Shown: positions 5,440 through 24,603 of the stretch, piece by piece
How the letters are laid out: the number at the start of each line of letters is the position of its first letter
Numbering within the stretch: the first letter of the stretch is position 1
Origin: a virus
Length of the DNA: 36,426 nt
Virus record (IMG/VR): IMGVR_UViG_3300034094_000020
Span: 1 to 36,426 of that record
Direction: 5' to 3' (one strand)
The notes under the pieces: model-generated
The model's database searches: none
Seen by the model: the letters and a program-made list of their open reading frames with translations, nothing else
Told to the model about the DNA's origin: nothing
Program-made: the position numbers and the translations under genes

Positions 5440-5848
5440 CAAGTCGCACCCTGCTGCTAGGAGTCAGGCCAAACTCGCCCATTAGCGACGCCTGGAGCGC
5501 CACTAAACTGCGATATAGCGGCCCGGCCGGGTTCGGTTTCACGCCACCTAAGTCTGTTCGCATCACCGGGCCCGACGCTCGGAGCTCGAGCAAACACGCC
5601 TGCGTCGCAGCGTACACCTCGCACAAAGTCGCCAAGGCTTCGCCGTCGGCAGTCGTGAGCGTCCCGAGGCCGGTCAGAATCGGCACGAGCTCGGTCCACT
5701 TCTCCACGGCAGACGGTTCCAGCATCAGACGCTTGGGCATCGGCGGCACGCCGACCGGGGCCGGCAGGTCGGGCCGGATCTTGCGCTTGCCGCGATTGCC
5801 GGCGAGCCGCTTGGCCGCCTCGGGGATTGGCTTACGTCCTCGCGGCAT
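5378..5848 (-). CDS. terS: Terminase small subunit (P27/Terminase_4 family)
   Basis: 156 residues beginning MPRGRKPIPEAAKRLAGNRG, the usual basic opening of P27-like small terminases, followed by the helical core VEKWTELVPILTGLGTLTTA and LCEVYAATQA. It binds the packaging site and loads TerL. The ATG at 5846-5848 has a GAGGTGAGCG ribosome site; the same sequence precedes the papain-like peptidase gene at 10383. The arrangement HNH, terS, terL, portal is typical of cos-type phages. Confidence 0.9.
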   Translation of the reverse strand: MPRGRKPIPEAAKRLAGNRGKRKIRPDLPAPVGVPPMPKRLMLEPSAVEKWTELVPILTGLGTLTTADGEALATLCEVYAATQACLLELRASGPVMRTDLGGVKPNPAGPLYRSLVALQASLMGEFGLTPSSRVRLGGKEEKPSDEVEDFFKLHGA

Positions 5849-18188: not shown

Positions 18189-18430
18189 TTGGCCACCTCC
18201 TCGAGCACGCGGATCGTGCGCGCCTTGCCGTCGTGCCACTCGATCCAACCCTTGTTTCGCAACGGAACAAGGTGGCAAATCGCACCGTTCGGCGAGTCGA
18301 ATTTGAACGCCAGGCACAACTCGCGCACCGTCGGGCTGAACCCGTGCTCGGCGATGTAGGCCGAGAGCCAACGCAGGATTTCGCGCTGGCGTTCGGTGAG
18401 CGGCTTGCGGTCGGTGGTGGTGGTGGTCAT
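18185..18430 (-). CDS. Stand-alone LexA-type winged-helix DNA-binding domain
   Basis: 81 residues matching the LexA N-terminal domain from end to end: LTERQREILRWLSAYIAEHG, FSPTVRELCLAF as first part of the HTH, then LVPLRNKGWIEWHDGKARTI as the wing. The C-terminal self-cleaving protease and dimerisation domain is absent, and no such sequence follows in any frame before the next gene. It could bind host SOS operators or phage operators without being inactivated by RecA. Six threonine or related residues precede the domain (MTTTTTD). Confidence 0.85.
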   Translation of the reverse strand: MTTTTTDRKPLTERQREILRWLSAYIAEHGFSPTVRELCLAFKFDSPNGAICHLVPLRNKGWIEWHDGKARTIRVLEEVAK

Positions 18431-18903
18431 GCTGCGTCTCCAATGCGTCCGCCATTAGCTAGGCCCAGTCGCCTCTGCAAATACCGAACAAGTCCGTAGG
18501 CAGTAGCCATTTCGATCTTTAGTTCGGCAGCCTTGTCGGCAATCAAGTCAACGATCGACTGGTAATCGTCGTGCGTCGCCTGGTCCACGACTGCAGTCAG
18601 TTCCGCACGCATGCGAGCGTTCTGGTCTGCGTCAATCCTGACGATCTGTCGCGGCTGTTCTGATGCTGATTGGCGAGACACCAGTTTCCGAACACGATGC
18701 AGCGAGCGGTATTCGTCCAAAAGCCATTTCAGATGCACAAACGGCGTGTCGTGATTTCTCTTGGCGTTGCGGATCGCGTCCCACAAGATGTCTTGATCCA
18801 GCGGCGACAAGTCTTGCCGAACAAGCGTTGCCTCTTCGGCCGTCCAAGCGTGCGTGGGCCAAAGCTGGTTCATGGCCTCTCGGTTTTCGTCCCACGTTCT
18901 CAC
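18427..18903 (-). CDS. Unknown early protein, possible replication accessory factor
   Basis: 158 residues from a GTG at 18901-18903 with AGGAGGG upstream, overlapping the stop of the DUF1376 gene (GTGA). The N-terminal third (LSPLDQDILWDAIRNAKRNH) and the C-terminal third (YQSIVDLIADKAAELKIEMA) are helical. No Walker motif is present, so it is not a DnaC-type ATPase. Position after a replication initiator is where phages place helicase loaders; this is only a positional hint. Confidence 0.65.
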   Translation of the reverse strand: MRTWDENREAMNQLWPTHAWTAEEATLVRQDLSPLDQDILWDAIRNAKRNHDTPFVHLKWLLDEYRSLHRVRKLVSRQSASEQPRQIVRIDADQNARMRAELTAVVDQATHDDYQSIVDLIADKAAELKIEMATAYGLVRYLQRRLGLANGGRIGDAA

Positions 18904-19712
18904 AGGTTCCCTCCTGCCGTCTGGCGTCCACGTCCTTGGGAATGCCCTTTGGGGTCGGCGAACTCGCCTGCCCTAATCCTGTCCACGAAGTCAAAGAAAC
19001 GAGTCACCGGCAGCGGCCGGTTGAAGTACTGGCGGCTCGGTAGCCGGGCCAGCGCCTCGCGTGCTCGCTGCAGCCACCCAGGCGTCGCCGCAAGGTCCGC
19101 CCAGCCATCGGGGGCAGTCAGGTGATGCCAAGGCTCAGCCCGCTCGGTGACGTTCCAGACCGCTGCGAACCGCTGCCACTCGTCCGATGCCCAGCCTGGC
19201 TGGCAAAAGTCGTCCGGCTCGGCTGGCGTGTGTGTGTGTGTAATTTCTTCTTTAGAAGAAGTTGGTGTTGGTGTTGGTGTTGGATGGTTGGTTTTTGCTC
19301 CACGGTTGCCCTGCGTATGCTCTGCGTTTGCTCCACGATTGCTCCACGATTGCTCCACGTTTGCTCGTGCGGCGATGGCTGCCGCCTTTGCCGCCGCTGC
19401 CCGTTTTGCCGCTTCTACCCGCTTTTCCTTGAGTTCCACGCAACGGCCACGGTGCTTCTCAAGCCTTGGATTCCGACGCAGGCCGTCCACATCGACGGGG
19501 AACTTGTCCGCCAGCATTGGCCAGGCCGACGTGACGCCGGGCGACAGCCGCTCGATCTGATCGAGCTCGGCCGGGATGCCGCCACGGTCCCAGGCCACCA
19601 TCAGCAGCGTCAGGTAGTGGCCACGTTCCTCGGCGGTCCAACCGAACGTGCTCGTCAGGAAGTCCCTGACGTACAGCGGCATGTACACGTCAACTCGCAG
19701 CTCGTCGCTCAT
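18900..19712 (-). CDS. DUF1376 (YdaU-like) replication initiation protein
   Basis: 270 residues. Residues 8-50 (YMPLYVRDFLTSTFGWTAEE, then RGHYLTLLMVAWDRGGIP) are the hallmark of DUF1376 proteins found at phage and prophage replication loci. The middle (residues 85-160) is an Ala/Lys/Arg-rich helix and a repetitive linker encoded by the iteron array, then a Pro/Thr/His run. The C-terminal part (SDEWQRFAAVWNVTERAE; LARLPSRQYFNRPLPVTRFF) looks like a second folded domain. Origin sequence inside the initiator gene recalls lambda O. The ATG at 19710-19712 has GGAAAGGAA upstream. Confidence 0.85.
   Translation of the reverse strand: MSDELRVDVYMPLYVRDFLTSTFGWTAEERGHYLTLLMVAWDRGGIPAELDQIERLSPGVTSAWPMLADKFPVDVDGLRRNPRLEKHRGRCVELKEKRVEAAKRAAAAKAAAIAARANVEQSWSNRGANAEHTQGNRGAKTNHPTPTPTPTSSKEEITHTHTPAEPDDFCQPGWASDEWQRFAAVWNVTERAEPWHHLTAPDGWADLAATPGWLQRAREALARLPSRQYFNRPLPVTRFFDFVDRIRAGEFADPKGHSQGRGRQTAGGNL
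19232..19371. repeat. Candidate replication origin: seven 11-bp iterons plus an A/T-rich palindrome
   Basis: Seven directly repeated 11-mers follow each other without spacing from 19295 to 19371. Units 1, 4, 5 and 6 are TTGCTCCACG plus G, A, A or T; units 2, 3 and 7 are degenerate (TTGCCCTGCGT, ATGCTCTGCGT, TTGCTCGTGCG). Beside them lie a GT run, the palindrome TTCTTCTTTAGAAGAA (19245-19260) and four or so GGTGTT repeats, an easily melted-looking stretch. All of it lies within the coding sequence of the DUF1376 initiator, as the lambda origin lies within O. Confidence 0.75.
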
Positions 19713-19763
19713 ATCGGATTCCTTTCCATTCCGCCCCGCCGCGTCGAAGCGGCGCAAATGCCG

Positions 19764-24505: not shown

Positions 24506-24603
24506 CTGCGTAGCGTCGCGGGAACTAGGTAGGAAACTAGGTAGGATCGCTCCGGGCACGGCGAGGAAACGCAGCAGGGGAAAGGGAGAAACCCTGCCGC
24601 GCC
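24506..24603. other. Convergent intergenic region after int, candidate attP region
   Basis: The region holds a perfect tandem of the 12-mer AACTAGGTAGGA (24523-24534 and 24535-24546). A GCAGGG/CCCTGC hairpin (24574-24579 with 24592-24597, 12-base loop) follows. Converging genes need a terminator, but neither side of the hairpin has a T-run. Direct repeats beside the int 3' end may be integrase arm sites; attP is often located here. Confidence 0.45.

Follow-up and report, generated by a model that had tools for sequence, protein, structure and literature searches.

The question raised by this locus is whether a phage gene for a putative replication initiator could carry the replication origin within its own coding sequence. 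The sequence derives from the IMG/VR virus record IMGVR_UViG_3300034094_000020, positions 1 to 36,426, and "the window" refers here to that whole stretch of 36,426 nucleotides. The window encodes a terminase, an integrase, RecT, a beta-clamp, a LexA-type HTH protein and a DNA methylase, with nearly all genes on one strand and a genome GC content of 60-65%. The left end holds capsid and terminase genes, the right end connector and tail genes, all on the same strand, and this gene order suggests that the record represents a circularly permuted phage genome. An end repeat was sought in the record and none was found, and IMG/VR classes the record as linear. Directly past the integrase gene, at 24523-24546, there is a 12-bp perfect tandem duplication, AACTAGGTAGGA, possibly an attachment or regulatory site.

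The genes of interest are the following:

18900-19712, minus strand: DUF1376 gene, putative O-like origin-binding initiator
18427-18903, minus strand: gene for an all-helical protein of 158 aa; it overlaps the DUF1376 gene at the latter's end

The putative initiator function was assigned from Pfam (PF07120), PHROGs, AlphaFold2 and the synteny with named phages, in which such genes hold the position of the O gene. The protein reached 32.3 bits in Pfam, above the curated cut-off of 30.1 bits, and 32.9 bits in the genome search, and PHROGs place it with "primosomal protein" families. Translation likely starts at the ATG at 19712 and not at the TTG at 19757, which would give the longest ORF. The protein consists of an N-domain (residues about 5-100), a disordered linker (about 125-172) and a C-domain (about 174-250); in the AlphaFold2 model both domains are ordered, and pLDDT falls below 50 at residues 125-172. 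Sequence and fold searches of the PDB gave no significant match for this protein, and MotA and the DnaD N-domain, weak matches with E values of 3-7, were set aside as fold relatives. At 18900-18915, GGAGGGAACCTGTGA encodes the conserved C-terminal GGNL of DUF1376 and also resembles the RBS of the overlapping downstream gene. The 158-aa product of that gene is a conserved partner of the C-domain type found in the window and a candidate helicase-loader analogue. Family searches gave no match for it and the fold search no significant one, lambda P being set aside as a fold relative at E = 3, and no recognisable helicase loader was found in the window.

The linker-coding part of the DUF1376 gene holds a tandem array revealed by repeat analysis:

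19290-19366, minus strand: seven tandem 11-bp iterons with the consensus GAGCAAACGTG on the gene strand, present in 4-10 copies in relatives

On the minus (gene) strand, the contiguous units read GAGCAAACGTG, GAGCAATCGTG (twice), GAGCAAACGCA, GAGCATACGCA, GGGCAACCGTG and GAGCAAAAACC; exact CGTGGAGCAA is found in four of them, and the other three are degenerate. The top TRF score of the window belongs to 19294-19366, with a period of 11 and 6.6 copies. The seven contiguous 11-bp repeats described in the initial annotation were borne out by the period-11 self-match of the array, which amounts to 50 of 66 positions, in comparison with a maximum of 41 in 100 dinucleotide shuffles over all periods from 7 to 30. 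Their location in the linker-coding part of a DUF1376 gene was likewise confirmed by Pfam and by the disorder in AlphaFold2, the protein segment encoded by the array lying beside and inside the disordered linker. As in origins of the lambda O type, the iterons (19290-19366) are therefore positioned between the parts coding for the N- and the C-domain (AlphaFold2-disordered residues 125-172).

Next to the array, further elements are present:

19261-19283, minus strand: (ACCAAC)n hexamer run, A/C-only and strand-asymmetric, between the iterons and the hairpin
19245-19260, minus strand: inverted repeat or hairpin TTCTTC-TAAA-GAAGAA, compensated in relatives
19228-19260, no strand assigned: A/T-rich stretch with an (AC/GT)n run, candidate unwinding element, with 30 bp at 30% GC

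The GT/GGTGTT runs noted earlier correspond to a GTTGGT hexamer run at 19261-19283 and a GT run at about 19228-19241. What had been named a perfect palindrome is an inverted repeat located at 19245-19260, TTCTTC-TTTA-GAAGAA, its arms separated by a loop of 4 nt. The 30-bp segment starting at 19231, with its 30% GC, belongs to the lowest 0.01% of such segments. An A/T-rich tract beside the iterons is thus present as in lambda O-type origins, with the hexamer run intervening between the tract and the array.

A scan of viral contigs retrieved 15 near relatives of the gene, 13 of which are complete and 54-88% identical, and an alignment-based scan, reaching down to 30% identity, contributed a further 80 viral and 4 genome loci, Planctomycetia and Phycisphaerales MAGs among them. 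At the position of the hexamer run, relatives carry runs of CCAACN, CACCTT or CCATCT, and past the hexamer run 40 of 42 near-clade loci have an inverted repeat whose arms measure at least 6. The arms vary in a compensated manner, as TTCTTC/GAAGAA, TTCTCC/GGAGAA, TTCTTCCC/GGGAAGAA, GTCTTCTGC/GCAGAAGAC, AAGAAGAAC/GTTCTTCTT and AGAAGAACAC/GTGTTCTTCT. Of the 104 positions in 13 unique arm pairs, 97 are paired, in comparison with a mean of 55.9 and a maximum of 87 when right arms were re-dealt in 5000 shuffles; as the set was preselected for inverted repeats, this number represents variety with compensation and not an unbiased rate. Two or more Watson-Crick types occur at each of the pairs 2-8; the closing C-G is invariant.

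Loops on the template strand are mostly GNA (GAA, GTA, GGA, GCA) or GNNA (GTTA, GCTA, GTCA, GCCA), a class known for the extra-stable mini-hairpins that it forms in DNA (PMC4686876), the exceptions being TCTA and TTTA, the latter found in the window. A reading of the hairpin as an RNA UNCG tetraloop was rejected, as it suits the triloop set only, while the rule of GNA/GNNA loops in template-strand DNA suits most of them. Leu-Arg codon constraint may explain part of the triloops; in one locus (L096) the same loop is read in another frame (Thr-Ser). Only near-clade genes have a strong hairpin, and it is not general among distant DUF1376 genes. In three of the latter, from Rhizobium, Microcystis and Komagataeibacter phages (L136, L143 and L017), a common TCACTTCGTTC loop motif with differing stems is found after the array region. 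In addition, one clade has a second hairpin, CAACCGGC-TGC-GCCGGTTG, ~25 bp past the first one (nt 458-476 of the L040 DUF1376 gene, and relatives such as L048 at nt 470), with the compensated variant ACAACAGGC-TGC-GCCTGTTGT.

In regard to the gene neighbourhood, named phages show the order cro-cII-DUF1376 followed by a DnaC or P loader or by DnaB, and Pseudomonas phages the order regulator-DUF1376-loader, with a DnaC-like or P-like loader. DUF1376 adjoins a DnaB-type helicase in a Leptolyngbya phage and, from sequence reading, in a Phenylobacterium contig. Where named phages have a DnaC-like, P-like or DnaB gene, the window has only the 158-aa helical protein. The DUF1376 gene of E. coli K-12 is ydaU, which belongs to the Rac prophage and is situated in the lambda-O position, followed by ydaV, which encodes a putative ATP-binding protein; in a related phage the gene at the ydaV position is annotated as DnaC-like. 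The ydaU linker region contains TGTTCAAACA at L100:5512 and 5545, inverted at 5568, together with degenerate copies, and this array is marginal (p = 0.06) in synonymous-codon shuffles, which preserve the protein and the codon usage. Annotated O proteins of Gifsy-1 and of further phages combine the YdaU C-domain with other N-domains. The O protein of 673R7 has this C-domain in common (86.7%), while its N-domain and its linker repeats are not those of YdaU. Rac-SA53 hardly differs from K-12 ydaU up to the end of the array and continues just past it with another C-domain. These E. coli chimeras (ydaU, Rac-SA53 and 673R7 O) thus indicate that the array and the DUF1376 N-domain travel together. Rac carries an active origin, oriJ (PMC3945230), and its exact coordinates were not found in the literature searched.

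The link with primosomal-type synteny and with the N-domain of a protein in the O position, the location of the array in mid-gene and not at a promoter in every case found, and the compensated hairpin and A/T-rich stretch alongside it all speak against an operator, that is, an array bound by the DUF1376 protein or another regulator for transcription control or autoregulation, with the replication origin located elsewhere. A repressor that binds cooperatively could well use tandem sites one helical turn apart, and initiators are generally known to autoregulate often, but considering all of the above we regard an operator as quite unlikely.

A second alternative concerns the protein: a low-complexity linker could have been expanded by replication slippage, with no function at the DNA level. 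The disorder of the linker in AlphaFold2, the variable copy number and a recent 33-bp triplication in L003 are in accordance with such an origin of the repeats. However, since 11 is not a codon multiple, the array units encode three different peptides. The 11-bp array with the core (G/C)AGCAAACG is present in all 13 complete near relatives, in about 4 to 10 copies, and the core AGCAAACG is kept despite the varying copy number, also next to an exchanged C-domain, as seen on comparing the window with the L040/L054 clade. For the window gene and its 13 near relatives, 14 genes in all, only 0-1 of 1000 synonymous shuffles per gene reached the observed period-11 score; as the period is lost on such shuffling, it is the DNA and not the protein that is conserved, and the protein-repeat explanation is ruled out for near relatives. 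Position and helical spacing also recur in unrelated linkers with different units, and protein-level repeats as the general explanation are very improbable.

This recurrence was followed in a family set of 69 non-redundant DUF1376 genes from planctomycete-type phages, named phages and alphaproteobacterial genomes. With simple repeats masked, 53 of the 69 genes reach a self-match of at least 21 of 30, and of the 191 non-redundant control ORFs, which come from the same loci, 18 do so, counts that overstate independence even after redundancy filtering because the loci are related. The best period is 11, 12, 22-24 or 33-36 bp in 50 of the 53 self-similar genes, whose arrays mostly start at gene nt 316-403; strong periods of control ORFs are nearly all codon multiples. 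The unit varies by clade, being AGCAAACG, GATGGCATATGC, GAGCAATGCGAACGCATATGCCC, AAGCACTACTCA or others. Synonymous shuffles of the linker region gave p <= 0.05 in 43 of the 69 genes and in 10 of 29 distant ones, with a combined p of about 1e-9 for the latter. This period test was used instead of a whole-gene test for the 8-mer with the maximum copy number, which has low power on short arrays. No clear array was present at the threshold used in 16 of the 69 genes. In Acinetobacter, Vibrio and Methylophilaceae phages (L138, L140 and L142), the strongest self-match comes from 7- or 8-bp repeats of the TAACCA type and not from 11/12-bp ones. The expectation that equivalent repeats would be found in DUF1376 genes of relatives therefore agrees with the same position and spacing in multiples of 11/12 bp in 50 of 69 genes and with the DNA-level conservation in near relatives, and the opposite outcome named in the initial annotation, a conserved protein linker devoid of DNA repeats, was not the one found.

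Another cis-acting site, such as a partition site, a packaging site or a recombination enhancer located in the DUF1376 gene by chance, is extremely unlikely. Iteron-like arrays are generally known to act also as centromeres or packaging sites, but from neither role would one expect the array to be linked with an initiator-like N-domain or with a downstream helicase loader gene.

We consider it highly probable that the array, the hexamer run, the hairpin and the A/T-rich stretch constitute a theta-replication origin within the linker-coding DNA of its own DUF1376 initiator gene, an explanation that builds on the observed anatomy, DNA-level conservation, compensated hairpin, synteny and movement of iterons with the N-domain. 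Iterons one helical turn apart all face the same side of the DNA. According to the mechanism we propose, the DUF1376 N-domain would bind the iterons and wrap the DNA, and the A/T-rich, strand-asymmetric stretch beside them would melt. The C-domain would recruit the helicase-loading machinery, which in other phages could be DnaC-like or lambda P-like loaders or DnaB, and in the window perhaps the 158-aa protein. The exposed template strand could fold into the stable hairpin, possibly serving as a loading or priming signal.

One prediction, that the cumulative GC skew should turn at the array, did not hold: the skew passes 19.3 kb without turning, and among six relatives no turn recurs consistently. 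Detrended cumulative and fourfold-site variants were run in seven genomes, and the detrended minima lie 1.6-3.6 kb from the site in four of them and elsewhere in three; with nearly all genes on one strand, the skew test is a weak one. The initial reading of an iteron-type origin embedded in the initiator gene is accordingly supported by the array architecture and the conservation in relatives, and not by the skew.

An origin within an initiator gene is a kind of organization already known from lambda O and from gene 38 of the Bacillus phage SPP1. In lambda and Stx phages, ori-lambda likewise presents iterons and an AT-rich tract in the middle of the initiator gene O, followed by a loader gene (PMC7466680). 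However, lambda iterons are 19-bp imperfect inverted repeats, whereas DUF1376 genes have 11-12-bp units and a separate compensated hairpin. Homology of the DUF1376 N-domain to the N-terminal domain of lambda O was not found, as Pfam (DUF1376 only) and PHROGs gave no lambda-O match and the PDB fold search no significant one; being unrelated by sequence in this domain, the window protein is not filed in the O family. By analogy, it probably works like lambda O, and the proposal of the same logic in a different protein family agrees with the synteny, the natural exchange of domains seen in phages of E. coli and Salmonella and the lack of a lambda-O domain match. Gene 38 of SPP1, with oriL, has the same kind of arrangement as the window gene (PMC6316719), but SPP1 also has a second origin, oriR, and no relation between gp38 and DUF1376 was found. 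A further parallel, in domain and position, is YdaU of Rac, with DUF1376 in the O position before the DnaC-like ydaV and a TGTTCAAACA-type array with 33- and 11/12-bp spacing; its iteron sequence and C-domain differ from those of the window, and oriJ within ydaU is a prediction.

Extending this to the family, we lean towards the view that DUF1376 is a widespread family of origin-binding domains, in phages of Planctomycetes, Proteobacteria and probably Cyanobacteria, in which portable modules of the N-domain and its own iterons swap C-domains. Planctomycete-type origins would add the template-strand GNA/GNNA hairpin as a loading or priming signal, and oriJ would lie inside ydaU, with the array at about NC_000913.3:1421509-1421590. 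The DUF1376 initiator family, the iteron type and the hairpin appear undescribed in the literature searched, where publications mentioning DUF1376, judged by their titles and one passage, describe no origin. DUF1376, found in many phages and prophages including Rac of E. coli K-12, thereby gains a testable function, and origins of phages carrying it could be predicted from sequence alone to within about 100 bp. In many lineages, coding DNA would at the same time be a structured cis element, and the natural initiator chimeras would present a binding domain that moves together with its own binding sites.
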